Program-made: the position numbers and the translations under genes | DNA from: Deltaproteobacteria bacterium | GTDB taxonomy: Bacteria; Desulfobacterota; Binatia; UBA9968 | DNA length: 33,834 bases | Assembly (NCBI GenBank): GCA_016180805.1 | Contig: JACPAM010000030.1 | Coordinates: forward strand, 1-33,834 | Reading direction: 5' to 3' | Shown here: positions 6,537-33,834 of the stretch, in pieces | Position numbering within the stretch: position 1 is the first letter of the stretch | Layout: each line of letters starts with the position of its first letter | Notes under the pieces: generated by a model | The model's input: only the letters and a program-made list of their open reading frames with translations | The model's database searches: none | What the model was told of the DNA's origin: nothing

Positions 6537-6743
6537 ATGAAAACAGACCGTAATGACAACAGGATCGATACCACCCTGGGGGAGCTTGTAGCGACCATCA
6601 GCGAGGTGGCCTATGAATATTCCCATGACACGAAAGAGGCCTATAACCTCGCCCGTCTGGTTTTGGTCGATATTCTGAAAAAGGCATCCCCCAGAAGTAA
6701 AAGCGTTGACCGGCACTTTGCTGGAAGTAAGCACCTGCATTAG
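6537..6743 (+). CDS. Small protein of unknown function (68 aa)
   Basis: The ATG at 6537 is preceded by GAAAGGACAAG, a plausible ribosome-binding site. The product is hydrophilic and probably helical, with no cysteines, membrane segment or recognised domain (MKTDRNDNRIDTTLGELVAT at its start). It ends 58 bases before the preferred start of the radical SAM gene and may be cotranscribed with it. It follows the second copy of the dispersed repeat. Coding is likely but not certain given the short length. Confidence 0.5.
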   Translation: MKTDRNDNRIDTTLGELVATISEVAYEYSHDTKEAYNLARLVLVDILKKASPRSKSVDRHFAGSKHLH

Positions 6744-6801
6744 TACGTTTCAATCCAGCTTTTTCCCCATGACAGGCTCTGGCGCAATAGTTGCTTCGAA
6801 G

Positions 6802-9015
6802 ATGCCGTTTAAAAAACTCCGCATCGTCTTGATCAAACCCTCCAAATACGACGACGACGGTTATGTGATTCGCTTTTGGAAGGGCGTGCTGCCGAGCAAC
6901 ACGCTCAATGTCCTCAACGGTTTGACCGAAGAGGTGAAAAACAGTCGCGTATTCGGCGACCTTACCATTGAGATCGTCACCTTTGACGAGACTGCAGAAA
7001 AACTCCCGGTAAGAAAAATTATCGGTTGGAGCCGGCATCCTGCGACCAAGCTCGTCGTGGGCCTGGTCGGCGTCCAAACCAACCAGTTTCCAAGGGCCGT
7101 CGACCTGGGTCGCCGGTTCCGGGCCGCCGGGATCGATGTCATCATGGGCGGATTCCACACCAGCGGCACCATCAACATGTTGGGCGAGCGGGAACCGGAG
7201 ATCCAGGCGCTGGTTAACGAATCCATCTCGATCGTGTCCGGTGAAGTCGAGGAGAAGTGGGCCGAGATCCTGGCGGACGCGCTCCACGGCCAACTAAAGC
7301 CCATTTACTCATTCGCCCAGAACCTGCAAAACCTCGTTGATATCGGCAAGGCGCCGCTCCCCCGGATCAGTCCCAAGACCATGCGCCACTTTGCCAAACC
7401 CTCATTCGGCACCGCGGACACTTCCCGGGGCTGTCCGTTCGCGTGCTCCTTTTGCACCATCATCAATGTCCAAGGCCGTAAAATGCGCGAGCGCAGCCCG
7501 GAGAGCATCGCCGAGCTGATGCGCAGGAACTTTCGCGAACACGGAGTCTCCTTCTACTTCTTTACGGACGATAATTTTGCCCGCAAGAAACTCTGGCGTG
7601 AGACCTTCGAAGAAATCATTAAGGTCAAGAAAGAGGGCATCAAGATCTCATTCATGATGCAGGTAGACCTCGCCCGCAAACCGACGGATTTCGTGCGACT
7701 TGCAGCCGAAGCGGGCTGCACCCAGGTCTTTATCGGAATGGAGAGCGTCAACCCCGAAAATCTCAAGGCTGAAGGAAAGGGGCAAAATAAAGTCGAGGAG
7801 TATCAAAAGATTATCGAGGAGTGGCACGACGCGGGAATCGTCGTCCACACCGGATACATTATCGGCCTCCCCTTTGACACCAAGGAACAGGTGCCGCGCG
7901 ATATTCGCTACCTCATGGATGCGATCCAACCGGATCAGGCGTCGTTCTTCATGCTGACCCCTCTACCCGGATCCCACGACCACCGGGAGATGAAGAGGCG
8001 CGGCGAATGGATGGACCCCGATTTCAACAAGCGCGACTCTTTCCACGCCACTATCAAACACCCCAATATGACCGCGGAGGAGTGGTTCCATGCCTACGAA
8101 GAGGCGTGGCGATCCTTCTATAGCAAAGAGAACATGATCGAGATCCTGTCGCGGTGGAACCAAAAGCCCAGGGCTTATTGGAATCTCATGTCTTGCTTTT
8201 TCTGGTATAAAAACGCAGCCCTCATCGAAAGGGAGCACCCGATGATCGCCGGCTTCTTTCGATTAAAGGACCGGCTGTCGCGCAGGCCGGGATTCGCTAT
8301 CGATTCGTTGCCTGTCCATCTCTGGAAGCGGACCAAAGAGGTCACCCGCCTCCTTATCGCCTGGGTCAAATTCATCAAGGAAATGGAAGAAGTCTGGCTG
8401 CAGACGCGCAAGAAAAGCGAAAAAGAGGAAAAATGGCTCGTGGAGATTCAAAGGATTCAGGGAGAGATCTGGCAAGTCCTCAAGATCGGAGAATGGCAAA
8501 AAGTCTACACCAACGCCAGGGCAACCCTCCCCGCAAAGGCCAAGGCCTTACTGGATCCCTTTGAAGAGCTATCCTCGAAGATACTGTTCACCCGCAAAGA
8601 CCTGAACAAGTTTCTGGAACAATGGGAACGCCTCCAGTCTAGGATTGACGATTTGCGCAATCATCTCAGCCAAGAGGGAGTGGCCGCCCGCCGATGGCTC
8701 GATCAGATGTATCACATTCACACGAGCGTCCGGCCCGGAAGCAGGATACAAAAATGGCAAGAGGCCTACTCCCGCCTGAGGCAGAGCCTCCCGTCAACAT
8801 TCCACCTCTCTCATCTCAAATTCGATGCCTTGAACAATCAGGCGCTCTACTCGCGCGAGCCGCTCGATCGGTTCTGGGGCAACACGCTGGAACAGCTAAG
8901 ACGCCTGAGGATCTGGAATATCGACCTCGGAAAACTCACCACCAACCTGATCAAGGACTTTTTCCTGACCGCCTCTTTCGCCTTTACCTACCGCTCTGCC
9001 TCCCGGGGTGAATAG
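6802..9015 (+). CDS. B12-binding-type radical SAM protein with long C-terminal extension
   Basis: A protein of about 737 residues. Residues 1-200 resemble the cobalamin-binding Rossmann domain of class B radical SAM enzymes (VGLVGVQTNQF, then GIDVIMGGFHTSG). The radical SAM core follows, with cluster cysteines CPFACSFC at 211, 215 and 218, and later core strands (FFTDDNF, VFIGMESVNPE, HTGYIIGLPFDT). About 260 charged, probably helical residues make up the C-terminus and match nothing I recognise. Such enzymes often catalyse methyl transfer or ring chemistry on lipids, cofactors or natural products; the substrate here is unknown. The ATG at 6802 starts MPFKKLRIVLIKPS and fits the family, but its ribosome-binding site is weak. 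Alternatives are an ATG at 6769 and a TTG at 6706. Confidence 0.85.
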   Translation: MPFKKLRIVLIKPSKYDDDGYVIRFWKGVLPSNTLNVLNGLTEEVKNSRVFGDLTIEIVTFDETAEKLPVRKIIGWSRHPATKLVVGLVGVQTNQFPRAVDLGRRFRAAGIDVIMGGFHTSGTINMLGEREPEIQALVNESISIVSGEVEEKWAEILADALHGQLKPIYSFAQNLQNLVDIGKAPLPRISPKTMRHFAKPSFGTADTSRGCPFACSFCTIINVQGRKMRERSPESIAELMRRNFREHGVSFYFFTDDNFARKKLWRETFEEIIKVKKEGIKISFMMQVDLARKPTDFVRLAAEAGCTQVFIGMESVNPENLKAEGKGQNKVEEYQKIIEEWHDAGIVVHTGYIIGLPFDTKEQVPRDIRYLMDAIQPDQASFFMLTPLPGSHDHREMKRRGEWMDPDFNKRDSFHATIKHPNMTAEEWFHAYEEAWRSFYSKENMIEILSRWNQKPRAYWNLMSCFFWYKNAALIEREHPMIAGFFRLKDRLSRRPGFAIDSLPVHLWKRTKEVTRLLIAWVKFIKEMEEVWLQTRKKSEKEEKWLVEIQRIQGEIWQVLKIGEWQKVYTNARATLPAKAKALLDPFEELSSKILFTRKDLNKFLEQWERLQSRIDDLRNHLSQEGVAARRWLDQMYHIHTSVRPGSRIQKWQEAYSRLRQSLPSTFHLSHLKFDALNNQALYSREPLDRFWGNTLEQLRRLRIWNIDLGKLTTNLIKDFFLTASFAFTYRSASRGE

Positions 9016-20424: not shown

Positions 20425-21600
20425 CTAAACCTCGATCGAAATCAACTTCTCCTCAGAGCGCACTAACGGCTCAACGCCCGACTGCGTTACCAGGTAAGGC
20501 CGCGAGATCAACGCGCTGCCGCACTCTTTACCCGTAAAGCACGCGCGCAGCGTCAGGACCATCCCGGGCTTGATCTCCACTGCGCCTTCGGTCCCGAGAT
20601 AGGGCTCTTCGGTCAGGTCCAATCCCACACCGTTTCCCAGACCGTAGGCCTGAAGGGAATCGCGCGCAGCCGGTGAGGGAACTTCTCTCAGCCAGCCAGC
20701 CGCCGCCTGCGGCGAAACACCAACCTTCGTCCTCTCGACGAGCTGGCGGAACACATGAGCCGCCAGACCATGGCTTTTTACGACCTCCTCTGGCACGCTG
20801 CCCAAACAAAACGTCTGTCCCAGCTCCGCCCAGCAGCGCTGGCACGAAGCGGCAAGCAAAACCAAAATCGCCTCGCCTTTTGTCAAGACCGAATCTCCCG
20901 CAGGCCTGAGCCCGATCTGCGGCGCGCCGGACCGCGCCAGCAACAGACGGACATCCTCCGCTCCTTGGCGGCGCGCCTCGCGCTCCAGGACGGCGAAGAT
21001 TTCATATTCCTTGCGCCCGGGGCGCGCCTCTTCGGCGAACAGAGCGAGGGCGTCGGTTAAAATCCGGCTGGTCTCTTTGAGGAGCGAAAGCTCGGCCGGG
21101 GACTTGACGAGTCGAAGCGTGGTCAAAAGATCGTTGCAATCGCCAAGCTCGGTCCCCTCAAGCAGCTTCACGATCTCCCCCCACTCGCGGATATTGAGCT
21201 GCTCTCTGACCGTGACCAGTCCGACCCGCTTCGGTTTGAGACTTCGCGCTTCGAGCGCCCCGCTCAACCCTTGCGCGAACCGCGCCACGGAGCGGACCTC
21301 ATCGATCCAGGTGAGGGTTTTGGAAAAGGGGTTGTTGCGGCTCGGCTCCTGCACGACCAATGCCGGCTCGCCCTCCAAGGGGATCATCGCAAGGGCGCCG
21401 CGGTTCTTCGGCATGAAGTGGCTGACGAAGGCCAGATGGCCAAAGCGCCAGGAGTCGCCATAAACTAAAAGCAGACCCACGCCCCGCGCGCGCATCCCCT
21501 CACGGATGCGGTCCAGGCGATGGTGAAATTCCTCTTTGGGCAGCCGTCCTTGATCCCAGAGGCTACAGCCGCGGTTCAATACGGTGTGAAGTGTGTCCAT
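20425..21600 (-). CDS. Creatinase/aminopeptidase P-fold (M24-like) protein lacking metal ligands
   Basis: A 391-residue protein with the two-domain layout of the creatinase/prolidase family: an N-terminal domain (about 1-150) and a pita-bread C-terminal domain. The segment that normally carries the two metal-binding Asp residues reads ILVLLAASCQRCWAELGQTF, the usual GHGIG motif is GLGNGVGLDL, and the first C-terminal Glu region reads GMVLTLRACF. At least four of the five metal ligands are therefore replaced. The His that creatinase uses for catalysis is also not visible. It may be a non-catalytic or altered relative. The ATG at 21600 lies just after a relict M24 tail. A paralogue follows upstream on the same strand (21661-22806). 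Confidence 0.75.
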   Translation of the reverse strand: MDTLHTVLNRGCSLWDQGRLPKEEFHHRLDRIREGMRARGVGLLLVYGDSWRFGHLAFVSHFMPKNRGALAMIPLEGEPALVVQEPSRNNPFSKTLTWIDEVRSVARFAQGLSGALEARSLKPKRVGLVTVREQLNIREWGEIVKLLEGTELGDCNDLLTTLRLVKSPAELSLLKETSRILTDALALFAEEARPGRKEYEIFAVLEREARRQGAEDVRLLLARSGAPQIGLRPAGDSVLTKGEAILVLLAASCQRCWAELGQTFCLGSVPEEVVKSHGLAAHVFRQLVERTKVGVSPQAAAGWLREVPSPAARDSLQAYGLGNGVGLDLTEEPYLGTEGAVEIKPGMVLTLRACFTGKECGSALISRPYLVTQSGVEPLVRSEEKLISIEV

Positions 21601-21605
21601 AGTCC

Positions 21606-21632
21606 TCAAACCTCGATCGTAAAAAGCTTCAA
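21606..21632 (-). pseudogene. Relict C-terminal tail of a third M24-like gene
   Basis: Minus-strand bases 21632-21606 read LKLFTIEV then stop, almost the same as the true C-terminus of the neighbouring gene (LKLFTVEV then stop at 21661). The DNA around it is similar as well: 21601-21633 against 21654-21687. The fragment is separated from that gene by a REP-like palindrome and ends eight bases before the ATG of the next M24 gene. It looks like what remains after a tandem duplication and deletion, or after an insertion-linked rearrangement. Confidence 0.6.
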
Positions 21633-21660: not shown

Positions 21661-22806
21661 TCAGACCTCGACAGTGAAAAGTTTAAGCGGCGTTGTGGTG
21701 AGGCGTCGTGGACCGCTTGCTTCCACCCAGACTGTGTCGCCGAGCATCAGATAACCGGTCTCGGGAAGATACTGGTTGGGATGGACCACGAAACACATCC
21801 CTTCTTCGATCACCGCCTCATTTTCGTCGACGATCTCGGGGAAGGGCATGGACAGAAAACCGAGACCGTGTCCCCTGACCCGCATATAAGGAGGCCGGCA
21901 GTATTTCTCGTAGCCGTAGGCCGAAAACACCTGATTCATCACCTGCGCGACCTCGCCAACCTTGTTGCCCACCCGTACGCGCTCCAGGCTCTTTGCCATC
22001 GCCTCTTCAAGAATGGCGAACTTCTCGCGCAGAAGAGGCGAAGCGGAGCCCATGACGGCCGTCCGGCAGAGCTGGATGAAATGACCTTCACAGGCCGGGG
22101 TGATCTCGGCGATGATGATATCTCCCGGCTCTATCCTTCGGTCCTGAGGCGGGTGGGTGCAATGGCCGTGGTCGGAGGCCGTGACCATACCGAAATTATC
22201 CTCGGCTCCGCGAGCGCGCATCGCATACTCGACCTCCGCCGCCAACTCGTGCTCCGGCATCCCGACTCTCGCCTTCTTAAGAATCGCGCCAAAGCCAATA
22301 TCCGCCATCTCGGCGGCCTGCTGGATCGCCGCCCGCGCCTCCTCTCCTGGAAAGCGGGCGAGGGTGCTCAGGATTTTATCGGCGGGTCTAAGCTTGATGG
22401 CCGGGATTTTTTCCAAACCTAAATAGACGGCGGCCGGCATAAAAGCCCAACCGACGATGCCCACCTCTCCCCTGATCCCTTGCTGCCGCAGGAGCCCACT
22501 CACGCCATCGATAAATCGATCGACGACGCACGCGTCCTGAATCCACGTCTTCTCCCTTACTCTTCCCAGGTCCCATGAGAGGCTGATCAGGATCGTGGCC
22601 TCACCCGATTCGCTGAGAACAACCCCCGTGTGCGGCCCCATCGGCAAAACCCCGGAGATCCACAGCACCGGATTGATCTCCAACATGCTCAACTGCCCGC
22701 TGGAGTAAAAAAGCACCGCCGAAAGCCCTTCCCGCCTCATCGCCTCCCGCATCGAAGCCACTTTTTTGCGAAAGACGCCGGATTCATTGGCCACTCTAGT
22801 TTCCAT
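21661..22806 (-). CDS. Creatinase-like (M24-fold) hydrolase without canonical metal site
   Basis: A 381-residue creatinase/prolidase-fold protein. The region of the two metal-binding Asp residues reads IIIAEITPACEGHFIQLCRT (Asp to Glu and Gln). The GHGLG motif is kept, but the Glu-containing motif reads GMCFVVHPNQYL (Glu to His), and the last Glu position is Leu (GYLMLGDTV). Creatinase is the known non-metal member of this fold and uses a His; the segment DHGHCTHPPQDR keeps a candidate equivalent. Amidinohydrolase, ectoine-hydrolase-like or other C-N hydrolase activity is possible. Its ATG overlaps the ABC ATPase stop by 11 bases, so it is coupled to that transporter. Confidence 0.78.
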   Translation of the reverse strand: METRVANESGVFRKKVASMREAMRREGLSAVLFYSSGQLSMLEINPVLWISGVLPMGPHTGVVLSESGEATILISLSWDLGRVREKTWIQDACVVDRFIDGVSGLLRQQGIRGEVGIVGWAFMPAAVYLGLEKIPAIKLRPADKILSTLARFPGEEARAAIQQAAEMADIGFGAILKKARVGMPEHELAAEVEYAMRARGAEDNFGMVTASDHGHCTHPPQDRRIEPGDIIIAEITPACEGHFIQLCRTAVMGSASPLLREKFAILEEAMAKSLERVRVGNKVGEVAQVMNQVFSAYGYEKYCRPPYMRVRGHGLGFLSMPFPEIVDENEAVIEEGMCFVVHPNQYLPETGYLMLGDTVWVEASGPRRLTTTPLKLFTVEV

Positions 22807-23569
22807 GGCGTTCCTCCATTTTCACAAACAGCCGGCTCACCCCTTTGGTCATTTCGAAAAGCCGGTCGTCATCATAGTCTCTGGGATATCCCACATCGAT
22901 CGAGACTGTGTCAAAGACCCGGGTGGGCCTTTCGGTCACCACGAGCAACCGGTTCGATAGATAGACGGCCTCGCTGATGTCGTGGGTAACGAAGATAATC
23001 GTTTTCTTGGTCTCTTGCCAGATCCGAATCAGCTCCGCCCTCATCTTGCGTGCGGTGATCTCATCGAGGCTGCTGAACGGCTCATCCATCAGTAAGATCT
23101 CAGGCTCTACCGCCAAGGCCCGGGCGATGGCGACCCTTTGCTGCATGCCTCCAGAAAGCTGCTGGGGAAAGTAGTCCTCAAACCCTTTGAGCCCCACCAG
23201 TTCGAGATAACGTTGCGCGAAATGCCACTGCTCCTCGTTCGAGAGGGCCCCATGTTCCAAAGGAAACTTCACATTCTCTCGGATGGAGCGCCAGTTGAGC
23301 AAGCGCGGCTGTTGAAACACAAACCCCAGCCTCATCCCATCCTCGCTTTCCAGCAATGGCCTTTCATTCAGCAGAATCTCGCCGCCGCTGAGAGTTTCAA
23401 TTCCGGCGAGGATATTGAGCAGGGTGGACTTGCCGCAGCCCGAAGGCCCCAATATTGAAACGAACTCTCCTTCCTTAACATCGAAAGTCAGCCCCCCAAT
23501 GACATCGAGCCGGCTTTCATCCGGGCGGAGGAAGTGCTTGGTCAGATCCCTGACAACGATCTTTTTCAC
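22796..23569 (-). CDS. NitT/TauT-family ABC transporter ATP-binding protein
   Basis: A 257-residue ATPase of the nitrate/sulfonate/taurine class. Walker A is GPSGCGKST, the Q-loop region FVFQQPRLLNW, the signature LSGGMQQRVAIARALA, and Walker B ILLMDEPFSSLD with the switch His in FVTHDISEA. The GTG start at 23569 follows the permease stop by 18 bases. It powers the neighbouring permease (23588-24337) and serves the binding protein at 24321-25307. Complete. Confidence 0.9.
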   Translation of the reverse strand: MKKIVVRDLTKHFLRPDESRLDVIGGLTFDVKEGEFVSILGPSGCGKSTLLNILAGIETLSGGEILLNERPLLESEDGMRLGFVFQQPRLLNWRSIRENVKFPLEHGALSNEEQWHFAQRYLELVGLKGFEDYFPQQLSGGMQQRVAIARALAVEPEILLMDEPFSSLDEITARKMRAELIRIWQETKKTIIFVTHDISEAVYLSNRLLVVTERPTRVFDTVSIDVGYPRDYDDDRLFEMTKGVSRLFVKMEERHGN

Positions 23570-23587
23570 TTGCCGTCGATCCTTGGC

Positions 23588-24337
23588 TTAGACTTGCACA
23601 ACCACCCGCCAGGCCGTAATCCGTTTTTCAAACGGATTGATCAAGAGAAATTCAATTCCCAAAAGCACAATGGTGAAGCTGAGTGCCCAAGCGAGCACCT
23701 GAGTCATAGAGAAAAGGCCAAACCAGTAATTCAGCATGTAGCCCACCCCGCTGCTCATCCCGATCAGCTCCACTGTGGTAGCTATTTTCCAAGAGATGCC
23801 GAGCGCGTAGCGAGTGGCCGCAAGGATATAAGGCACCGTCTGCGGAAGGACCACCTTGCGGATGAGATCGCGGCGAGGGACTTGAAAGGCCCTAGCCATG
23901 GTGACGAGTTGCATATCGATGTCTTTAACCCCCTGCCACATATTAATGGCGACTGCCGGAAAAGCGGTGATTCCGATGGCGATCACCGCGGCAAAATCGT
24001 TAAGCCCGAACCACAACAGCGTGATGATGGCGTACACCACTGCTGGTATGGTGAGTCCGACCATGACCCAGCTCTCCAAGAACTTTTCCCCTTTGGGTGA
24101 GATCCCCATCACAATACCGAAGGCGCTGCCAATGATCATGGCGAGGAAAAGACCTAAGAGGACTCGAAAGATGGTCTTGTAGAGATGAAAAAAACCGTCG
24201 CCCGAGGTGAGATTCTCCCAGATTGCCTCGAAGACCGGAATGGGCCCGGGGAGAATTTGCGGCGAAAAAACGAAAGAGAGAACGACCCAGGCAGCCAGCA
24301 GAACCAAAACGGAATAAATCTTAAGGGTTGTATGCAT
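23588..24337 (-). CDS. NitT/TauT-family ABC transporter permease
   Basis: A 249-residue inner-membrane permease with about six spans. The coupling-loop motif reads MARAFQVPRRDLIRKVVLPQ, close to the EAA loop of SsuC/TauC proteins, and the segment YALGISWKIATTVELIGMSS is also typical. The ATG overlaps the end of the binding-protein gene by 17 bases, so the pair is translationally coupled. Confidence 0.89.
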   Translation of the reverse strand: MHTTLKIYSVLVLLAAWVVLSFVFSPQILPGPIPVFEAIWENLTSGDGFFHLYKTIFRVLLGLFLAMIIGSAFGIVMGISPKGEKFLESWVMVGLTIPAVVYAIITLLWFGLNDFAAVIAIGITAFPAVAINMWQGVKDIDMQLVTMARAFQVPRRDLIRKVVLPQTVPYILAATRYALGISWKIATTVELIGMSSGVGYMLNYWFGLFSMTQVLAWALSFTIVLLGIEFLLINPFEKRITAWRVVVQV

Positions 24338-25307
24338 CGGTCATTAAATCCTCTGGAACCGCCTTAAGCACCTTGGGTCCCAAAATCTCTTTGACCGCTT
24401 CCAGGAAGTCTCTCTGAACCTCCATCTGCTGCCGGTCCCACTTCTCCAGAATTCTCGGTCCCCACGTCTTCTGTAACGCGGCGACCCCTTCCTTAGTGGT
24501 TATCCCTACGCTCTCCCCATAGCTCTTCCATATCTCGGAATGTGTACGGATATACCGCACCGCATCCACGTAGGCCCTGAGGTATCTCCTGAGAAGGTCC
24601 GGATTGGCCTTGGCAAACTCTTCGTTGGTGGCCAGCGTCACAGTAGCAGGAGCCCTACCGGCTCTTTTCTCCCACTCCTCGCTCATGTCAAGGAGAACAC
24701 GGTATTTACCCGTAAGGGGAAGCGTCACGGATTCCTGATTTCCAACTAGGGCAGCGGCCAGTTGGTCCTTGTCCAAGAGGCCTGCCAGGGCCGGCCCCGG
24801 CGCGGTGATCAGCTCCGTTTCTCTTTGGAGATCCATACCGTACCACTTTTTTGAGATTGCCATCAGCATGCTCGTGGTAGCGGACCCGGGACCCCCGAAA
24901 TTGCCAATTCTCTTTCCCTTAAGGGCGGCAAACGACTGGATCGAAGATTCTTTCTTTACGAGCACCGCATTGACAGGAGAAAAAATGCCGTAAATGATTA
25001 CCATATCCTTTCCTTCGGCTCGCGCTCTTGCCATCGCGGTGACCCCGCCGTAGCCGATGTCGACCCTTTTCTCCGCAAGGAAGAGATGAAGTGGAGCCGG
25101 ATTGAGGACCTTAATTCTCTCGTAGGGAACATTGTATTTGTCCAGGAGCTTCTGACGCTCCATGACGTTATGGATAAGATCCTGCGAGCCGCTCGTAAGT
25201 ATTCCGAGCCGCACTTTTTTCGTTTCTGCCGCGGCCGCAGGCGAGGCCCACGACAGCGCCCAGAGAACGGAGAAGACCAGCGTCCCCTTTAGCATCAAAG
25301 CCAGCAT
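24321..25307 (-). CDS. NitT/TauT-family periplasmic substrate-binding protein
   Basis: A 328-residue type II binding protein. A signal peptide is evident (LKGTLVFSVLWALSWASPA, cleavage near AAAAET). The mature part has an N-terminal VRLGILTSGS strand, the LAEKRVDIGYGGV segment and the LKGKRIGNFGGPGSATTSML hinge, all typical of NMT1/SsuA-like proteins. AGGAGG precedes the ATG at 25307. The ligand is unknown: the family binds sulfonates, nitrate, pyrimidine precursors, aromatic acids and others. Given the hydantoinase and creatinase-like genes around it, a nitrogen-containing organic compound is a fair guess. Confidence 0.88.
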   Translation of the reverse strand: MLALMLKGTLVFSVLWALSWASPAAAAETKKVRLGILTSGSQDLIHNVMERQKLLDKYNVPYERIKVLNPAPLHLFLAEKRVDIGYGGVTAMARARAEGKDMVIIYGIFSPVNAVLVKKESSIQSFAALKGKRIGNFGGPGSATTSMLMAISKKWYGMDLQRETELITAPGPALAGLLDKDQLAAALVGNQESVTLPLTGKYRVLLDMSEEWEKRAGRAPATVTLATNEEFAKANPDLLRRYLRAYVDAVRYIRTHSEIWKSYGESVGITTKEGVAALQKTWGPRILEKWDRQQMEVQRDFLEAVKEILGPKVLKAVPEDLMTDAYNP

Positions 25308-25367
25308 AAAATCCTCCTGCCTATTTTTCCGCGCATCATCGCGGCTCCTTGTTCGACGTCTTCCCTA

Positions 25368-26459
25368 CTACTTTTTCGCAAGCTCGCGCAGGTAACGCAC
25401 GCCCCCTTGATAATCCTCGAACAGTCTTTTAACCGCGGTTTTGACCACCCGGTCCGCCGACTCACCGAACAACGCATCCGCAGGCTGCCCCAAAACCTTC
25501 TGATGCTCTTCCCGATAAGGCGGATCCTGCGTCATCATTTCAAGGGCGCGGGTCAAGATCGCGATCCGGTCGGGCGGCACGCCCGCCGGAAGGCTGACCA
25601 TGCCTTGAAACGCTTGCGGGACTACCAGTGCCTTCCAGCCCTCCCACGCGGGACCCGCTTTCTTCTCCTTGGGCAAGACCTCGTCCAAGGTTGGTATATC
25701 CGGGATGAACTCCGAGCGTTTAAAGGTTTCCTCTAAAGTCAGGATTCCCGTTTGCCAGAGAACTACTATGGTCCCGTCCTTCTCCCTGGGCTGGATAATG
25801 GGTTTATAGCCGGCCATGGGCTCTTCGAACAGGTGGATTTCCCCGCGCTCGAGAGCTACCAGCAAGTCCGCCGATCCCCTGTAGCCCGTCACCCAGGTGT
25901 GGTCCACACCAAACAGCTCCAGTGCCAGCTTGGGCCTGAGGCTTCGGGGGCTCGAGGCTCCAGAACCGCCGATCCGCAACTTTCCTGGCGCACGCAGGAT
26001 GTCTTCTGCCCTCTTGATTTTGGTCGCCTTAGCATTGAAGGCGGTCAGCCAACTGTCCTCTTGGACCCAAAGGACAGACATGCGCCGAACGTCATACTTG
26101 ACGCTTTCGGGCTGAAGAAAGGTATTCATGACCGGGCCGGTTGGAGAGTGAAGCATGGTCAGCCCGTCGGGTGTGGCAACACCGAACACGTAGTTGGCTG
26201 CTATCTGGCCGCCGGCGCCGGTCATATTCTGCACAACGATGGTTGGATTGCCGGCAAGCCATTTGGGCAGGTAGCGCGCGATGAGCCTTGCTCTCAAGTC
26301 GATCGTGCCGCCGGCGGCAAAACCGGCAATGATGCGAATGGTTTTTCCCGCATAGAAGGGCTGCTCTTGAGCCGACGCGATCTGCCCCGAGTGCGCCACG
26401 ACCAGCGCAAGTCCAAGCACAGCATGGATCACTGGGAGCTGACAACTTGCCCTCTTCAT
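25368..26459 (-). CDS. TTT-family (Bug-type) periplasmic solute-binding protein, orphan
   Basis: A 363-residue protein of the tripartite tricarboxylate transporter receptor class. It has a signal peptide (HAVLGLALVVAHSGQIASAQ) and the family N-terminus FYAGKTIRIIAGFAAGGTID, followed by NMTGAGGQIAANYVFG. The ATG at 26459 is chosen for the signal peptide and the GGGGGGTAGG purine run before it; a longer frame to 26537 has no such support. No TctA or TctB membrane subunit lies in the window, so it is an orphan receptor, as is common in organisms with many Bug proteins. It sits inside the catabolic operon between the dehydratase genes and the ABC transporter. Confidence 0.85.
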   Translation of the reverse strand: MKRASCQLPVIHAVLGLALVVAHSGQIASAQEQPFYAGKTIRIIAGFAAGGTIDLRARLIARYLPKWLAGNPTIVVQNMTGAGGQIAANYVFGVATPDGLTMLHSPTGPVMNTFLQPESVKYDVRRMSVLWVQEDSWLTAFNAKATKIKRAEDILRAPGKLRIGGSGASSPRSLRPKLALELFGVDHTWVTGYRGSADLLVALERGEIHLFEEPMAGYKPIIQPREKDGTIVVLWQTGILTLEETFKRSEFIPDIPTLDEVLPKEKKAGPAWEGWKALVVPQAFQGMVSLPAGVPPDRIAILTRALEMMTQDPPYREEHQKVLGQPADALFGESADRVVKTAVKRLFEDYQGGVRYLRELAKK

Positions 26460-26544
26460 ACACCTACCCCCCTTCACCTTTGCGATTGACGCAAAACCCG
26501 GGGAGGGATTCCCCCCACATCGAGCTGTTCGTGTCATGGAGCTG

Positions 26545-27807
26545 CTAAGACAGAAATTCTCTGGGATCCGTGATGGCTCCTCGGATCGCGGTCGCCGCCG
26601 CCACAGCAGGACTTCCCAGATAGATCTCAGCGTTGTAGCTCCCCATGCGCCCCTGGAAGTTGCGGTTGGCGGTCGAGAGCGTGACCTCGCCGTCGGCCAT
26701 CACGCCGCCGTCCCCCGCGCACGCGCTGCAGCCCGGGTTCGTGATCAGCGCGCCCGCCTCGAGAAGGATCGAGTACGTCCCGTCCTTCACGGTGCGCGCC
26801 ACGATCTCTTTGGAGGCCGGGCTGACGAGCAGCCTCACACCCGGGGCCACCTTGTGTCCTTTGAGAATCCGCGCCGCCTCCACCAGGTCCTCGTACTTGG
26901 CGTTCGCGCAGGAACCGATGAAGACCTGGTCCACCTTGGTGCCTGCGACCTGGTCGATTGGCTTCACGTTGTCGACCGCGTGAGGGCAGGCGATCTGCGG
27001 CGCCAGGCTTCGCCCGTCGACGGTCGCGCTCTTCACGTAGACCGCATCGGCGTCCGGGTGAACCTCGGCGTAATGCCCCGAAGGCACGCCGCGCTCGGCC
27101 AGGTAGCTTCTCGTGGTCTCGTCCGCACAAACGACCGCGTTCTTCGCGCCGACCTCCATGGCGAGGTTACAGAGCGTCATTCGATCGGAGATCGAAAGCC
27201 CTTGCGTGTAGCTACCATGAAACTCGACGGAGAGATACGTGGCGCCATCAGCCGTGAGAGTGCCGATCAGTTTGAGCATGACGTCTTTGGAGCTGGTGCC
27301 GCGCGCCAGCGGGCCTTCGATCGTGACCTTGATCGAGTCCGGCACCTTCATCCAGAGCTTTCCCGTGACCCAGGCAGCCGTGATCTCACTAAAGCCGACG
27401 CCGGTGCCGAAAGCGCCGAGGGCGCCGTAGATCGTCGAGTGGGAATCAGTCCCGATCACGACCATGCCGGGGCGGATGTACCCTTCCTCCATCAGCACGA
27501 CGTGAGCGATGCCGGCTTCGACGTCATAAAACTTCTTGATGCCTTTGCGCACGGCGAACTCACGGCACATCCGCTGGTCGTCGGCAGTCTTGGGGATCCG
27601 GGCCGGGGAGATGTGATCCATGACCATCGCGATGCGGTCCGGATCGTAGAGTTTATCCGTCCCGAGCTTCTCCAGTGTGCGGATGCAGCGCCAGCTCGCC
27701 ATGTGGCTCATGTAGAGATCAGGATAAACATCGACGATCTCACCGGGGCGGGCTTCCGACAGCCCGGCGGCTCTGGCGAGGACTTTCTCAGCAAACGCTC
27801 TTCCCAC
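26545..27807 (-). CDS. Aconitase-family large subunit (LeuC-like hydro-lyase), Fe-S cysteines intact
   Basis: A 420-residue large subunit of the isopropylmalate/homoaconitate dehydratase type, a [4Fe-4S] hydro-lyase that moves a hydroxyl group on a di- or tricarboxylate. The three cluster ligands are visible: Cys300 in FIGSCANAKYEDL, and Cys360/Cys363 in NPGCSACAGDGG. Active-site segments DHISPA, GTDSHSTIYGALGAFGTG and GRMGSYNAEIYLGSP are present. The start is a GTG at 27807, six bases after the small-subunit stop (27814-28326). The small subunit precedes it in the operon, the reverse of the usual order. It is probably a catabolic paralogue, not the leucine-pathway enzyme, since no other leu genes are near. 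Confidence 0.87.
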   Translation of the reverse strand: MGRAFAEKVLARAAGLSEARPGEIVDVYPDLYMSHMASWRCIRTLEKLGTDKLYDPDRIAMVMDHISPARIPKTADDQRMCREFAVRKGIKKFYDVEAGIAHVVLMEEGYIRPGMVVIGTDSHSTIYGALGAFGTGVGFSEITAAWVTGKLWMKVPDSIKVTIEGPLARGTSSKDVMLKLIGTLTADGATYLSVEFHGSYTQGLSISDRMTLCNLAMEVGAKNAVVCADETTRSYLAERGVPSGHYAEVHPDADAVYVKSATVDGRSLAPQIACPHAVDNVKPIDQVAGTKVDQVFIGSCANAKYEDLVEAARILKGHKVAPGVRLLVSPASKEIVARTVKDGTYSILLEAGALITNPGCSACAGDGGVMADGEVTLSTANRNFQGRMGSYNAEIYLGSPAVAAATAIRGAITDPREFLS

Positions 27808-27813
27808 TGACCT

Positions 27814-28326
27814 TCACCCTTTCAGCGCTTTCTCTTGGGGCAAAACATACTTGGCCAGGTAGGGGATCAAACCTCCCGCCTCGAGGATCTGCCTGAGGCT
27901 CTCAGGATATGAGGCAAAGCCGAATTCCTTTCCATGAACAACGGCAATCCCGCTCGCGTAGTCGATCCAAAGTTCGCCGTCATCGGCGACGGCCTCTGCC
28001 GCCTCAGGGCATTCGACCACGAGCAGTCCGGTATTGATGCAATTCCGAAAGAACACCCTGGCGAAAGACTTCGCGACCACAGCTTTGATCCCGGCGCCGA
28101 TCAGGCAACTAGCTGCCTGCTCGCGCGCGCTCCCGCAGCCGAAGTTTCTCCCGCCCACCACCACTTGAGAAGACCAGAGGCGTTTCTGGACCTCCGGCCC
28201 CAGCGGCTCGAAGGCATGCTTGGCCAGCTCCTGCGGGTCGATGCTTACGAGATAGCGGCCGGGTATGATCACGTCGGTATTGACGTTGTCCCCGAACTTT
28301 ATAACCTTCCCGCCAACCTTTTCCAT
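27814..28326 (-). CDS. Aconitase-family small subunit (LeuD-like), pairs with the intact large subunit
   Basis: A 170-residue swivelling-domain subunit. It shows the typical KFGDNVNTDVIIPGRYL segment and the catalytic loop NFGCGSAREQAA, in which the active-site Ser and Arg of the GSSRE motif are kept (Ser-Ala-Arg for Ser-Ser-Arg). Near the C-terminus, EAGGLIPYLAKYVL is also typical. The ATG at 28326 overlaps the stop of the OCD-family gene (TAATG), so it is translationally coupled to it. It forms the dehydratase with the product of 26545-27807. Confidence 0.87.
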   Translation of the reverse strand: MEKVGGKVIKFGDNVNTDVIIPGRYLVSIDPQELAKHAFEPLGPEVQKRLWSSQVVVGGRNFGCGSAREQAASCLIGAGIKAVVAKSFARVFFRNCINTGLLVVECPEAAEAVADDGELWIDYASGIAVVHGKEFGFASYPESLRQILEAGGLIPYLAKYVLPQEKALKG

Positions 28327-29405
28327 TACGGCGTCGTATCCTCCAGGAACCATTCGGTCGGCACCTCGCGCCCCAAACCTTTCGCCTTCGCCAGCTCAAG
28401 CGCGCGCGCGCCGACCGCGGCGAACTGAAGCCCCATCCCCGTATTGTTGGCAAAGACTGTGATTTGCTCTTTGCGGCTTCGCCCGGGAAAGCGACCGACC
28501 AGGAGATCGCCGAGCTCGCCGATTTGCTCCCACGTTTTTAATCCCCGCTTTACCGGGCCCATGATGTCGATCTGGTTGTCGTACTCAATCTGTTCTTTCG
28601 AGAGCACAATCAGGACGTCGGCGCGATCGAACGTCGTGTCATCCAGCTCGCGCCGTATAGTCGTGCGATCAGGCGACGTGATCGCAGTAATGTGGGTACC
28701 GGGCTCGACCCAGCTCCCGTCGAAGCACGGATCCATGGCCGCCGTGGCGCAGGTCACGATCGGGCAGCCCTTGACCGCATCTCGCGGATGGTCCACCGCA
28801 ATGATTCGCTTGCCAAGCTTATCGCTCCACTCACCGGCGAAGGCTTTGCGGTGGGATGAGGTCGGGCTATAGACGCGGACCTCCTCGATCTCGGGGCGCA
28901 CCATGAAAAGATACTTGAGGTGAGCCTCCGCCTGCCAGCCCGCTCCGAAGAGCCCCGCAACCCTCGCGCCGGGGTTGGAAAGCTCGCGGATTCCCACCGC
29001 TGAGGTGGCGCCGACCCTGAGCTTCTGGATAAAGCTATCGTGCATGACGGCGAGCGGCTCCAGGGTCTCGAGACTGTAAAGGGTAATGAGCCCGACAAAA
29101 GTGTTGCCGGGCGCTGCCGGGATCAACCGGCGCCGCTTGACGCCCCCCTCGAGCGTCTCCACACCGGCCATATCTGAGGTGATGCGCAAGGCCCAAACCC
29201 CGGAGGAGGGGTTTCCGCCTTCCTGGGACTTGAACCTGAAATGAAAGCCCGGATAGCGCTTATCCTCCACCGGAAGCATCGTGTGGTTGCGTGGGCGGTT
29301 GGCAGCCTTCCCCAGAGCGTACTCTTTGTAGGCAACCTCTAGAACTTCCAAACAGCCCTCAAGGGTAAGGACCTGCTCGATGTCGTTGTTGGAGAGAATG
29401 CGCAT
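28326..29405 (-). CDS. Ornithine cyclodeaminase/mu-crystallin-family enzyme
   Basis: A 359-residue NAD(P)-dependent family member. The nucleotide-binding fold shows GLFGAGWQAEAHLKYLFMV, and the substrate-side N-terminal segments (FHFRFKSQEGG, VMHDSFIQKLRVGATSAVG) fit the family. The active-site region after the fold reads HITAITSPDRTTIRRELDD, without the D-x-PGKTEL pattern of true ornithine cyclodeaminases. Another amino or imino acid substrate (ketimine reductase or amino acid dehydrogenase type) is therefore more likely. GAGGAG precedes the ATG at 29405. It lies between two aconitase-type small subunits, an unusual arrangement that ties it to the same pathway. Confidence 0.83.
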   Translation of the reverse strand: MRILSNNDIEQVLTLEGCLEVLEVAYKEYALGKAANRPRNHTMLPVEDKRYPGFHFRFKSQEGGNPSSGVWALRITSDMAGVETLEGGVKRRRLIPAAPGNTFVGLITLYSLETLEPLAVMHDSFIQKLRVGATSAVGIRELSNPGARVAGLFGAGWQAEAHLKYLFMVRPEIEEVRVYSPTSSHRKAFAGEWSDKLGKRIIAVDHPRDAVKGCPIVTCATAAMDPCFDGSWVEPGTHITAITSPDRTTIRRELDDTTFDRADVLIVLSKEQIEYDNQIDIMGPVKRGLKTWEQIGELGDLLVGRFPGRSRKEQITVFANNTGMGLQFAAVGARALELAKAKGLGREVPTEWFLEDTTP

Positions 29406-29423: not shown

Positions 29424-29918
29424 TTATCCTTCGCCGGCAAGCCGCTCAGCCATCGGAATGAGCCCGCCTGCCTTCAGCATATCGAGGAGGAAGGGAGGCG
29501 TGGGCCTGGCCTGAAGCTCACGGCCGGTGGTCTCGTTGACAATCCTGCCGCTGTCGATCTCCACCAGGAGAATGTCGCCGTCACTGACCTGGGCCGTGAT
29601 CCCCGGGCACTCGAGCGCCGGCATTCCGATCTCAAAGCCGTTCCGATAAAAGGTGCGGGCGAAGCTCTCGGCGATGACGCAGCCGATCCCGGTCTGCTTC
29701 AGCGCTTTGGCGGCGATCGCACGACCGGAGGACTGGCCGAAGTGCTTCCCGGCAACCACAATTTCGCCGGGCTTTACCTTCAGCGGGAACTCAGGGTTAC
29801 AGGTCTCCAGAACGTGCTTCAGAATTTCCGAGAAGGGGCGGAAAACCAGATCCGTTCTGACGATCCGGTCCGTGGGAATGTTGTCTCCGAACTTCCAGCA
29901 GCGGCCTCGTGCCTGCAT
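29424..29918 (-). CDS. Aconitase-family small subunit (second, divergent)
   Basis: A 164-residue LeuD-like swivelling subunit. It begins with CWKFGDNIPTDRIVRTDLVF and carries the loop HFGQSSGRAIAAKALKQTG in place of the usual FGCGSSREHA. The catalytic Ser and Arg positions can be aligned, but the Glu after Arg is lost. ESFARTFYRNGFEIGMPALE and the LKAGGLIPMAERL end are typical. An AAGGAG ribosome-binding site precedes the ATG at 29918; the longer frame to 29963 runs into a REP-like element. It pairs with the cysteine-less large subunit at 30080-31327, separated from it by that element. Confidence 0.82.
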   Translation of the reverse strand: MQARGRCWKFGDNIPTDRIVRTDLVFRPFSEILKHVLETCNPEFPLKVKPGEIVVAGKHFGQSSGRAIAAKALKQTGIGCVIAESFARTFYRNGFEIGMPALECPGITAQVSDGDILLVEIDSGRIVNETTGRELQARPTPPFLLDMLKAGGLIPMAERLAGEG

Positions 29919-29930
29919 GGGTTTCTCCTT

Positions 29931-30076
29931 AAAAACGGTTTTGCTGAAAAACCCTCCGTTCATCCTTCGAGAGCCTCAGGACGAACGGAGGCACGCCTGA
30001 AATCATTGGAGATTTTCCGTTCATGCTGAGCGCGTCGAAGCATGAAATGCCCTTTTTCAGTAGAATCAAAAACGGT
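29931..30076. repeat. Composite REP-like element between the divergent aconitase-type subunit genes
   Basis: Two hairpins lie side by side. CCTCCGTTCATCCT/AGGACGAACGGAGG (29953-29991) is a 14-bp stem with one mismatch. TTCATGCT/AGCATGAA (30020-30046) is a perfect 8-bp stem. The whole is bounded by inverted CTGAAAAA (29944-29951) and TTTTTCAG (30053-30060). A 9-base direct repeat, AAAAACGGT, flanks it at 29931-29939 and 30068-30076 and could be a target-site duplication. The right half recurs at 15703-15739. Confidence 0.75.
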
Positions 30077-30079
30077 CTT

Positions 30080-31327
30080 TCATAAATATTGTCTTGGATC
30101 CGCTATCGCACCGGCCACGGCCGAGGCGGCCACGGTCAGAGCTGAGGCAAGATACATCTTGGCCTCAGGGCTTCCGTTGCGGCCAGGGAAGTTCCGGGCG
30201 TGGGTAGAAATCATCGCCTCCTCGGCAGTCATCGCCCCCATGTTGTACGCTTGATTCGATCCGGTGCTGGGTGGAAACCAGGTGGCTCCGGCCTCGTGCA
30301 GCTTCTCCACCAACCCCTCGCGCACCGCTTGCCTGAAGACAGCCCGGCTGGACGGGACAAGATTGAACCTCAAGTCGGGGTGCACGCGCCGTCCTGTCAG
30401 AATCTGGGCTGCGAGCCGGAAGTCCTCGATGCGTCCACCGCCGTGCCCGCCCAGCTCGGACCACTGGACCGGCGCCCCCAGCACCGCGGTGACGGGCTTG
30501 ACGTTTCCAACCGTCGGCGGGCACGCCACCTGGGGCTCAAGATCGCTCAAGTCCCATTCCCAGACCGCCTCAAATGCTCGCTGCGGATCGCCCTTCAGCA
30601 CGTCAAACGGTTTATCCGTCACGCTGCGCACAAAGCTAAGGGTCTTCTCGTCAGGCTCGATGTAGCCGCACTTGGCCCCCAGGTCCACCACGATCAGGGG
30701 AAAGAGCCAACGGTCCCAGAAATCAAGCTGCTCGACGTACGGCCCGGCGAACTCCAGCGCCTTGTAGATCGCGCCGCCCTCGCCGATCGTGCCGGTAAGC
30801 CAAAGCGCCGCATCGCGCGGCGTGGCTCCGCGCTTGTGGGTTCCGCTGAGCCTGACCTGGATCGCGTCGGGGACCTTGAACCATGCCTTGCCAAACGGCA
30901 TGACGGTTCCCGCGTGCGAGTCGTTGCCGATGCCAGTTGCGAAGCATCCCAGCGTTCCGTGCACGGGCGTGTGGCTGTCCGAGCCGACGACCACGGTGCC
31001 GGGCCGGATGAAGCCGTTCTGCACCCCGACGTGGTGCGTGTTTCCGTTGCCGCAGTCGAAGAGGTTGATCCCCCAGCGCCGGGCGAAGCTTCGGTTCTCC
31101 TGGAGAATACGGGCCCCCTCTTCAGTCGGCGGACAGAAGTGATGGTCGAAGATCATCACCACGCGCTCCGGGTAGCGCATCGGCCGGCGCACCTCGCGCT
31201 CGAAAACACGGCCGGTCAAATAGCCGCTGAGATCGTGCAACAGCAGGCAGTCCACATTGGCGACCACTACCTCGCCCGGCGTGACCGTCTTGCGCCCGCT
31301 GGCTCGGGCCAGAATCTTCTCGATCAT
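30080..31327 (-). CDS. Aconitase-family large subunit homologue lacking all three Fe-S cysteines
   Basis: A 415-residue LeuC-like protein. General family segments are kept: IFDHHFCPP, VVGSDSHTPVHGTLGCFATG, ARNFPGRNGSPEAKMYLASA. The cluster ligands are not. The GSCTNSRIEDL motif reads LGGHGGGRIEDF (Cys to His295), and the PGCGPC motif reads PPSTGSNQAYN (Cys to Thr355 and Asn358). A normal [4Fe-4S] cluster therefore cannot be bound in the usual way. The rest is full length and undisturbed, arguing against decay. It may use another metal, another chemistry, or act as an inactive partner. The ATG at 31327 is used; GTG at 31333 is possible. It follows hyuB by 58 bases. Confidence 0.85.
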   Translation of the reverse strand: MIEKILARASGRKTVTPGEVVVANVDCLLLHDLSGYLTGRVFEREVRRPMRYPERVVMIFDHHFCPPTEEGARILQENRSFARRWGINLFDCGNGNTHHVGVQNGFIRPGTVVVGSDSHTPVHGTLGCFATGIGNDSHAGTVMPFGKAWFKVPDAIQVRLSGTHKRGATPRDAALWLTGTIGEGGAIYKALEFAGPYVEQLDFWDRWLFPLIVVDLGAKCGYIEPDEKTLSFVRSVTDKPFDVLKGDPQRAFEAVWEWDLSDLEPQVACPPTVGNVKPVTAVLGAPVQWSELGGHGGGRIEDFRLAAQILTGRRVHPDLRFNLVPSSRAVFRQAVREGLVEKLHEAGATWFPPSTGSNQAYNMGAMTAEEAMISTHARNFPGRNGSPEAKMYLASALTVAASAVAGAIADPRQYL

Positions 31328-31385
31328 ATTCACGGAACTAAGCGTTATCTCGGCCCACCAGTAGTGTCAAGGGTGGTGTCGTCCT

Positions 31386-33158
31386 TCACGGCGCGTCGTT
31401 CCCCGATGTGTCGTCTCGAGACCTGAGCGCTTTCGTCTCCGCTTCCAAAAGCTCCAGCGTCGCAGGATCGAGCGCCACCTTGTAAACGTCGCGGGCCTTC
31501 TCCACGCTCACATACCCCTCGAAGACGTCCCATTGAACGGCGCGAGGATCGCGCTCTTCTGGCTTGCCGACTCCCGCGCCGCCGCCGGTGACTTTCAGGA
31601 TCACGTCCCCGGGCTTGAGTTGGTAGAGCCGGTGCCCGCGGATCGTGCTCTTCTCACCATCGCGTATCAAATAGGCCCTGGAGTTCGGCGTCGGCTCACC
31701 ACCGAGGGCGCCGGGGCCGCGCACGATCTCCCCGTCAGAGCTGCCGGTAGCGATACCTGCCTCCCTGCCCACGTTCTGGACTTCCCAGTGGAGGCCGGAG
31801 CCGCCGCGCCACGTGCCGCTGCCGGCCGTATCCGTGGCGAACTCCCAGCGCGCGATCCGCCATGGGAAGCGCATCTCCAGCTCTTCGGCGTTCCCCTTGG
31901 CCACCGTCCCGAGCGAGCCCAGCGAGCAAGAACCGTCAAAGCCATCGAATCCTTTAACCGCTCCGGTCCCGCCGTCCATGTCGAAAGTCGTGACCACGTA
32001 CCGTTCATTGGTACGCGGGTCGTGGCCGAAGATGTAGTGGCCATGGCGCATCCCCCAGCAGGCGATGGCTCGGTCGGGCATCGCCTTGGACATGGCGTTG
32101 ATGATCGACTGCGTGATCTGCGTCCCAAGACTCACCGGGGAGGCGCCCACCGTGGCGGGATACTGGGCGTTGAGCGCCGATCCCGGCGGAGCGTATACGC
32201 TGATCGGGAGCAAGCTCCCCTCGTTGTGAAACTCCCCCAGTTCAGGATCCATGAACATGCACAGGGCGAACAGGGCGCCACTGTAGGTGGTGTTGTAGAC
32301 GCAATTTACGAACCCTTTTCGTTGCTTGTCGCTCTTGGAGAAGTCCACCGCGAGGCTGTCGCCCTTTACGGTGATCTCGCAGCGCACCCAGACCGGCTCG
32401 TCCAGCACCGTGCCGTCGTCGTCGGTTGCAGCCTCGCCGTAGTAAGTCCCGTCGGGGATCTTTGCGATTGTCGCCCGCACCGCCCGCTGGGTGCGGTCCA
32501 TCATCTCATCCACGCACTCGAGCACGGTTTCCTTGCCGTATTTGTCCAGCAGCGTGGTGATCCGCTGCTCACAGAGTTTGGTGGCGGCGATCTGGGCGTA
32601 GTTGTCGATCCTGACCCCCTGAGGCCAGCGCACGTTGTTAAGGATCAGCTCCATCACGTCCTCGCGCTCCCGATCCCCTTCCATCACCTTGATCCCGGGA
32701 ATGCAAAACCCCTCGGCGTGGATGTCGTAGGCATTGGGGAAATAGCCGCCGGGATATGCCCCGCCGGTGTCCATCTGGTGGGCGCGGCACAGCGTGATGA
32801 ACAGCAGCTCGCCCTTGTAGAAGATCGGCCGGTAAAAGCCCCAGTCGGGAAGATGGCAGCAGTAGCCGTTGTACGGGTCGTTGACCAGAATGACATCCCC
32901 TGGATTCAGGTTCCCCTTAAACTTGTCGAGGACGTACTGGATCGAAAGCTTTCCGCCGAAGTATTGCACCGAGAGACCAATGGGGATGGCTACCGTACGC
33001 GCCTTGGCATCCCAGATGCCGATGGAGACGTCATGAAGCTGGGCGATCAGATAGTTCTGGGAGGTGCGATCGATCACGTGGCGCATCTCCTTACAGATGC
33101 TCTGGAAGGAGTGCCACACGGTGGAGAGCGTGATGGGATCGACGCGATCTTGGCCCAT
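31386..33158 (-). CDS. hyuB: Hydantoinase B/oxoprolinase-family subunit
   Basis: A 590-residue HyuB-type subunit of ATP-dependent hydantoinase/5-oxoprolinase or related acetone-carboxylase-like enzymes. Family features include the early QNYLIAQLHDVSIGIWDAKA, the NDPYNGYCCHLPDWGFYRPI segment, the HQMDTGGAYPGGY stretch and the C-terminal TRGG-like region GTWRGGSGLHWE with GGGAGVGKPEERDP. GGAGG precedes the ATG at 33158, five bases after the hyuA stop. It works with HyuA to open a lactam or hydantoin ring at the cost of ATP. The exact ring substrate is not readable. It is the first complete gene of the long minus-strand catabolic series. Confidence 0.88.
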   Translation of the reverse strand: MGQDRVDPITLSTVWHSFQSICKEMRHVIDRTSQNYLIAQLHDVSIGIWDAKARTVAIPIGLSVQYFGGKLSIQYVLDKFKGNLNPGDVILVNDPYNGYCCHLPDWGFYRPIFYKGELLFITLCRAHQMDTGGAYPGGYFPNAYDIHAEGFCIPGIKVMEGDREREDVMELILNNVRWPQGVRIDNYAQIAATKLCEQRITTLLDKYGKETVLECVDEMMDRTQRAVRATIAKIPDGTYYGEAATDDDGTVLDEPVWVRCEITVKGDSLAVDFSKSDKQRKGFVNCVYNTTYSGALFALCMFMDPELGEFHNEGSLLPISVYAPPGSALNAQYPATVGASPVSLGTQITQSIINAMSKAMPDRAIACWGMRHGHYIFGHDPRTNERYVVTTFDMDGGTGAVKGFDGFDGSCSLGSLGTVAKGNAEELEMRFPWRIARWEFATDTAGSGTWRGGSGLHWEVQNVGREAGIATGSSDGEIVRGPGALGGEPTPNSRAYLIRDGEKSTIRGHRLYQLKPGDVILKVTGGGAGVGKPEERDPRAVQWDVFEGYVSVEKARDVYKVALDPATLELLEAETKALRSRDDTSGNDAP

Positions 33159-33163
33159 GGAAC

Positions 33164-33834
33164 TTACCTCCGGGAGAGAATGTAGTTTCTTACGCCGTCG
33201 ACGCGGCAGCGGTAGGCGGCGGGAATCACCACGGTCGTCGTTTTCTCCTCGATGATCGCCGGGCCATCGAGGACGTGCCCCGCTGCCAGACGGTCACCAT
33301 CGTAAACGGGCGTCTCTGCGTACCCGTTCCCCTTACTCCACAGCACGGGCCGGCTGCGCTTCAGCGCCTGGCTCGCCGGGCCCTCAGCCTCGGGCACTTC
33401 GGCCAGCCGCAACGGCTCGCGGCGCGCGGTGGCCTTCAGGCGCGCATTGAGCATCTCGACCTCGCGATCGGGCATGTCGAAAGTGTAAAGCTCTTTGTGG
33501 CGGCGGTGGAAGGCCTTGACGATTGCCTCCAGCTCTTCGGCGCCGATTTTTCCCAGCGGGACTGCAACCACCTCCACCTCGTGGAATTGGCCCACGTAGC
33601 GCATCTCGACGGAGCGCCGTCTGACGACCTCCCCGGGAGGGACGCCGATCTCGCCCAGGACCCGGCGGGCCTCGGCTTCCATCTCCGAGAAGAGCCCGTC
33701 GAGGTGAGCCAAATTCAGAAGCTTCACGCGGCTCACGATCGACCGGGCGAAGTCCCGCCCCACCTCCATGTTGAGCATCCCGAAGGCGCTGTAGGTGGCG
33801 GCGTAGCGCGGGATCACCACGGTGGGAATCTCCA
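33164..33834 (-). CDS. hyuA: Hydantoinase A/oxoprolinase-family subunit (partial, N-terminus beyond window)
   Basis: The C-terminal 223 residues of a HyuA-type subunit; the frame is open to the window edge. PRYAATYSAFGMLNMEVGRDF and the end segment DGPAIIEEKTTTVVIPAAYR are characteristic. The ATP-binding N-terminal domains lie outside the window. It is directly followed by hyuB with a five-base gap, as usual for this enzyme pair. Confidence 0.88.
   Translation of the reverse strand, partial: EIPTVVIPRYAATYSAFGMLNMEVGRDFARSIVSRVKLLNLAHLDGLFSEMEAEARRVLGEIGVPPGEVVRRRSVEMRYVGQFHEVEVVAVPLGKIGAEELEAIVKAFHRRHKELYTFDMPDREVEMLNARLKATARREPLRLAEVPEAEGPASQALKRSRPVLWSKGNGYAETPVYDGDRLAAGHVLDGPAIIEEKTTTVVIPAAYRCRVDGVRNYILSRR

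Follow-up and report, generated by a model that had tools for sequence, protein, structure and literature searches.

Aconitase is the textbook case of iron-sulfur chemistry, and a clade of its relatives that spans phyla, is held under selection and is devoid of the cluster cysteines therefore raises the question of what this scaffold does without iron. The locus that poses this question lies in a stretch of 33,834 nucleotides assigned to a Deltaproteobacteria bacterium (contig JACPAM010000030.1), referred to here as the window, in which a LeuC/HacA-type large subunit without cluster cysteines, LC2 (30080..31333, minus strand), is encoded together with its cognate LeuD-type small subunit, LD2 (29424..29918, minus strand). 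Three cluster cysteines are typical of the characterised members of the superfamily (PMC10040528), and all characterised members that we found in the open literature, aconitase X included, carry a cysteine-held Fe-S cluster. A cysteine-free aconitase clade or the operon of LC2 was not described in the open-licence PMC literature, although accounts elsewhere are possible.

Loss of the cluster site in LC2

The reading frame of LC2 is open and of full length on the minus strand and matches PF00330 with E=3e-65, which bears out the original prediction of a complete aconitase-type large subunit. Translation most likely starts at a GTG at 31333, judging from the orthologous proteins, which begin with MN(M/L)(I/V)EK; the residues previously named His295, Thr355 and Asn358 are H297, T357 and N360 here, since the earlier count began at an ATG two codons further in. 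Both subunits exceed the cut-offs of the aconitase superfamily profiles, LC2 with 221 bits (cut-off 28.7, PF00330) and LD2 with 47 bits (cut-off 22.8, PF00694). LC2 barely passes the broad subfamily model NF001614 (386.8 bits, cut-off 385) and stays below the equivalog cut-offs of TIGR02083 (307.5 versus 610.65) and NF040615 (300 versus 550), as does the cysteine-intact large subunit LC1 of the same operon for both equivalogs. The AlphaFold model of LC2 has a mean pLDDT of 93.7, and in a comparison of this predicted model with solved structures the large subunit of Methanocaldococcus jannaschii isopropylmalate isomerase was the closest fold (TM 0.92). As judged from sequence and model, LC2 is thus a member of the aconitase superfamily by descent and predicted fold that fails the defining cofactor feature of the family, and LC2 proteins annotated under the name given to NF001614, "3-isopropylmalate dehydratase large subunit", would be wrongly labelled as Fe-S dehydratases.

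Pairwise alignment to mitochondrial aconitase placed H297 (codon 30443..30445, minus strand) at Cys358 and T357 (30263..30265, minus strand) at Cys421, and the family alignment placed N360 (30254..30256, minus strand) at the third cysteine column, Cys424. The proposed replacement of the three cluster cysteines by His, Thr and Asn was therefore recovered in the alignments to aconitase and to the family. In the family alignment, the first and third columns hold Cys in 31/31 Cys-type sequences and in no LC2; Cys-type relatives sampled from outside the operon have all three cysteines, and the three cluster-holding cysteines are found in 0 of 28 LC2 orthologues. H297 and N360 are invariant in the 27 intact LC2 sequences and the second column is T, S or A. 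The divergent 28th orthologue, L072, likewise has none of the three cysteines and shows a threonine at the position of H297; N360 is invariant in 28/28.

The positions altered in all 28 orthologues are C358, C421, C424, N258 and N446 in aconitase numbering, the two asparagines of which we take to touch the cluster in aconitase. Among the residues chosen for comparison, those of the cluster shell were changed in 5/5 cases versus 2/12 for the other catalytic residues (p=0.003, indicative only, as the list was picked by hand). A further change in 28/28 affects the SCTN motif, whose asparagine corresponds to G299 in LC2. On these alignments, the canonical three-cysteine cluster site is lost clade-wide and under selection, and the loss is limited to the cluster shell.

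Residues retained in LC2 and LD2

Nine residues of LC2, namely D63, H64, H100, D119, S120, H121, D217 (E in Cys-type sequences), R380 and R385, are kept in 28/28 orthologues and correspond in this order to D100, H101, H147, D165, S166, H167, E262, R447 and R452 of aconitase; D63 and H64 were matched by the FDH motif and the others by alignment to aconitase. The set thus includes the acid and His residues around the substrate as well as the arginines that bind its carboxylates. Residues that are new throughout the clade in this neighbourhood include N98, H125 and N137. H125, which is specific to the clade, does not vary, and H140 is almost invariant, with isoleucine in L072.

LD2 matches PF00694 and scores 145 bits against TIGR02087 (cut-off 108.95), its model has a mean pLDDT of 91.7, and its fold match is the small subunit of M. 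jannaschii (3vba, TM 0.85). Its orthologues begin with MQARGRC, and residue numbers are counted here from the ATG at 29963. In an alignment with LD1, the small subunit paired with LC1, and with small subunits of the PDB, the loop FGQSSGRA (29718..29741, minus strand) pairs F-G-Q-S-S-G-R with F-G-C-G-S-A-R, which sets S79 on Ser642 and R81 on Arg644 of aconitase. The loop is invariant in 26 aligned LD2 sequences and reads FACSSGRA in L072, and the S79 and R81 positions are invariant across both LD1 and LD2. The original prediction of an altered catalytic loop (GQSSGRA for GCGSSREHA) holds for the motif as such, but the loop has retained both its serine base and the arginine that binds substrate. 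In aconitase, Ser642 abstracts the proton and the cluster serves as Lewis acid (PMC8184944). Since S79 is kept and the cluster site is lost, LC2/LD2 still has the serine base while the holder of the Lewis acid is gone. Taken from conservation, the acid-base and carboxylate-binding apparatus of the pair is under selection, although the retained residues could act in binding instead of catalysis.

The two-subunit layout and the fold are shared with archaeal LeuCD/HacAB (M. jannaschii MJ0499, 4kp1/4nqy; MJ1003, 4kp2; 3vba), with 38% and 45% identity in the fold alignments of the large and the small subunit, respectively, and so are the acid/His residues, the serine base and the equivalents of R447, R452 and R644. 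In contrast to the archaeal enzymes, three cysteines and two cluster-contacting asparagines are replaced in LC2/LD2, E262 has become D and the SSRE loop SSGRA. Aconitase X, a phosphomevalonate dehydratase of the same superfamily (fold match to LC2 with TM 0.46-0.60), differs from aconitase in its cluster ligands but still holds a [2Fe-2S] or [4Fe-4S] cluster by three cysteines, which lie at sites A and B and at either C or 1 (PMC8184944, PMC10040528). LC2, in contrast, has cysteines neither at sites 1-3 nor at site A of aconitase X; sites 1-3 are H/T/N and site A is the invariant H100. The fold of LC2 also matches the iron regulatory proteins 3snp and 6vcd. Iron regulatory proteins 1 (in the apo form) and 2 use the aconitase fold without a cluster, but they are eukaryotic, single-chain, RNA-binding proteins that have kept the cysteines, and unlike LC2/LD2 they form no heterodimer and belong to no operon. 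Another relative, 2,3-dimethylmalate dehydratase DmdAB, whose family is named by TIGR02087, is a LeuCD-type pair recruited to catabolism and is taken as an ordinary cluster enzyme; it is LC1/LD1 rather than LC2/LD2 that represents the pair type expected to resemble DmdAB.

Distribution and selection of LC2

LC2 orthologues with 80-100% identity were present in 9 of 40 close genomes searched (the own genome counted), which belong to several genera, and 30 LC2 loci with 60-94% identity emerged when 84,980 species genomes were scanned. Their hosts are metagenome-assembled genomes labelled Deltaproteobacteria, Burkholderiales, Alicyclobacillus and other Bacillota, Acidimicrobiia, Pseudonocardiaceae, Geodermatophilus and Spirochaetes. 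The 27 intact orthologues cover at least four phyla. L072, from the phylum of the window but a different class, encodes an LC2 with 59% identity and an apparent N-terminal frameshift. Cultured carriers belong to Alicyclobacillus, Amycolatopsis, Pseudonocardia and Geodermatophilus and make the question of a cluster-free function testable. With a dN/dS of 0.075-0.13, LC2 is under strong purifying selection similar to that on LC1, and in a quick tree that includes Cys-type relatives all LC2 sequences fall into a single branch (support 100). In a plasmid collection, no match reached 60% identity to LC2, and the two records inspected were ordinary Cys-type LeuC.

The operon is rare: among the genomes sampled, it was present in 3 of 247 from the phylum of the window and in 1-2 of about 350 from each of three further phyla, with the genome at the centre of each search included in the count. 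As expected, this rarity fits a catabolic cassette that moves among lineages. The LC2 proteins of two genomes from the same family as the window (L029 and L031) are only 80-81% identical to that of the window, whereas LC1 of L029 shows 90% identity; the LC2 proteins of both genomes group with other phyla in the quick tree, which hints at exchange inside the operon. Four orthologues are interrupted (L058, L064, L065 and L067), and LC2 of the Treponema metagenome-assembled genome L058 (G290:C132:17484-18737) contains one in-frame TAG, which may stem from an error in the assembly, mark a pseudogene or be read through.

Operon context

The second, cysteine-intact pair that had been noted nearby is real (26545-28353), and one gene lies between it and LC2/LD2. 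It consists of LC1 (26545..27807, minus strand; NF001614 521.5 bits), a LeuC/HacA-type large subunit with the motifs GSCANAKYE and NPGCSACAG, and LD1 (27814..28353, minus strand), which by profile matches and alignment is an ordinary LeuD-type small subunit with the loop FGCGSAREQ. The gene between the pairs, OCD (28326..29405, minus strand), encodes an oxidoreductase of the ornithine cyclodeaminase/mu-crystallin family (PF02423, E=5e-40), the nearest solved structure of which is a Delta1-pyrroline-2-carboxylate reductase. On its other side, LC2 adjoins a HyuB-type hydantoinase B/oxoprolinase subunit (31386..33158, minus strand; PF02538, E=2e-137), followed near the contig end by the C-terminal part of a HyuA-type hydantoinase A subunit (33164..33820, minus strand; PF19278). 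HyuAB genes are found near LC2 also in L047, L048 and L060, and genes of the MmgE/PrpD family in L047 and L048.

Two further genes encode proteins of the M24 family. M24b (21661..22806, minus strand) has the creatinase/prolidase fold with replaced metal ligands: in 17/17 full-length copies, including the orthologues of L047-L068, it shows E, Q, H, H and G where prolidase has the metal ligands D, D, H, E and E, and the histidine is the sole ligand kept. It matches ectoine hydrolase and creatinase weakly, and its sequence suggests a metal-free creatinase-type enzyme. M24a (20425..21609, minus strand; PF00557, E=2e-16) is a second, more degenerate member that has also lost the metal ligands. Its gene usually lies beside M24b near LC2, and both proteins possibly form one heteromeric enzyme.

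In Proteobacteria, Bacillota and Actinomycetota the gene order is, with minor variations, M24b - M24a - OCD - LD1 - LC1 - LC2 - LD2, often together with NMT1-type ABC genes. A second version occurs in Clostridia, Peptococcaceae and Spirochaetes, in which OCD is absent and a LeuC/LeuD pair of another clade replaces LC1/LD1 next to LC2 - LD2; where the flank was long enough (L050, L058 and L061), it comprises TRAP genes, a flavoprotein resembling PreA/dihydroorotate dehydrogenase and two copies of LD2. These LD2-type genes stand in tandem after a single LC2 (L050 11269-12330; L058 11304-12330; L061 11308-12299). The LC1 of the Spirochaete and Clostridia operons is from a different LeuC clade with 38-43% identity, whereas LC2 is 65-72% identical. 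LC2 thus persists in both versions, whereas LC1 and the redox enzyme have been exchanged. Wherever the contig was long enough, LC2 is accompanied by an LC1-type gene, and in all nine genomes checked a single LC2 occurs together with an LC1-type copy.

Proposed function and alternative explanations

We give an even chance to LC2/LD2 being a catalytically active heteromer of the aconitase superfamily that has no need of an Fe-S cluster, and we infer that it would act as an acid-base enzyme in the catabolism of a nitrogen-containing carboxylic acid. The serine of LD2 would take the alpha-proton beside a carboxylate, and His and Asp residues of LC2 would assume the protonation of the leaving group. 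No Lewis-acid iron would be required if this leaving group were not an unactivated hydroxyl; as hydroxy-acid dehydration of the aconitase type needs the iron as Lewis acid, a cluster-free version would have to perform a chemically different reaction. Acting on a di- or tricarboxylic acid, the pair would most likely eliminate or add a nitrogen group (as a C-N lyase), shift a double bond or epimerise its substrate, and if it is such an enzyme, a reaction at a C-N bond has a probability of about one half. Because the constant neighbours in the operon may themselves carry out C-N chemistry, our first guess, loosely held, is that LC2/LD2 catalyses a C-N lyase step with an amino di- or tricarboxylate as substrate; candidates for chemistry at nitrogen bonds are OCD, HyuAB, the M24 proteins and an isochorismatase-family hydrolase in L072. 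LC2/LD2 would then share one catabolic pathway with the cluster-bearing LC1/LD1, the OCD oxidoreductase and the putative creatinase-fold hydrolases. More tentatively, and with the balance tilting against it, the pair may found an Fe-S-independent branch of the superfamily in which only a serine base and His/acid residues carry out a non-hydroxyl reaction, probably as a C-N lyase, in an undescribed catabolic pathway where the M24 fold also gave up its metal centre.

The original prediction had left a different reaction, another metal and mere substrate binding side by side; the sequences favour catalysis without a cluster, and the other two are retained as rivals. Zn, Fe, Mn or Mg might have taken the place of the [4Fe-4S] cluster as a single ion, held by H297 and further residues of the pocket, for instance H125, H100, H121 or D119, and might still serve as Lewis acid for a dehydration. 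This is possible, though we regard it as rather unlikely: Cys358 has become His in 27/28 orthologues, the invariant H125 and the nearly invariant H140 line up with such a site and the residues around the fourth iron of aconitase (H147, D165 and H167) are all retained, but L072 has threonine for H297 and isoleucine for H140 in an otherwise conserved pocket, so that a site built on His297 is not universal. Somewhat more doubtful is a non-catalytic role of LC2/LD2 as partner of LC1/LD1, i.e. a pseudoenzyme that regulates or stabilises LC1/LD1 or binds the substrate. The constant company of an LC1-type gene would agree with this role, whereas the dedicated small subunit with its invariant serine base and arginine and the invariant catalytic residues of LC2 speak against it, and the exchange of the LC1 clade in the Spirochaete and Clostridia operons makes it less likely that LC2 depends on a complex with a single type of LC1.

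We consider it very improbable that an Fe-S cluster is still bound through displaced cysteines. Aconitase X demonstrates that ligands can move within the superfamily (PMC8184944), and the clade-specific C94 and C222 are present in 27/28 orthologues, but these are S and A in L072. As no cysteine column is universal across the 28 LC2 orthologues and both sites 1-3 and site A of aconitase X are free of cysteine, the cluster cysteines were most likely lost rather than shifted nearby. A sequence error, an isolated mutation or a decaying pseudogene has next to no probability. Readings from single metagenome bins can contain errors and a few orthologues are interrupted, but 28 orthologues, including those of cultured strains, agree in having no cysteines at these columns, and the dN/dS of about 0.1 and the conserved operon refute this explanation.

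Uptake genes and a neighbouring hydrolase

In the window, a block of uptake genes found by profile search (22796..26537, minus strand) separates M24b from LC1 and comprises an ABC ATPase (22796-23569), an ABC permease (23588-24337), an NMT1-type binding protein (24321-25307) and a TctC-type binding protein (25368-26537), all on the minus strand. Matching ABC genes adjoin the LC2 operon in L057, L062, L063, L067 and L068. The transporters vary by host and include NMT1 ABC, tricarboxylate TTT, TRAP, branched-chain ABC and MFS types, a variety that suggests just a small acid as substrate. In L072, the gene right after LD2 (6589-7170, plus strand) encodes the isochorismatase-family hydrolase, which is nearest to biuret amidohydrolase with a score under the cut-off.
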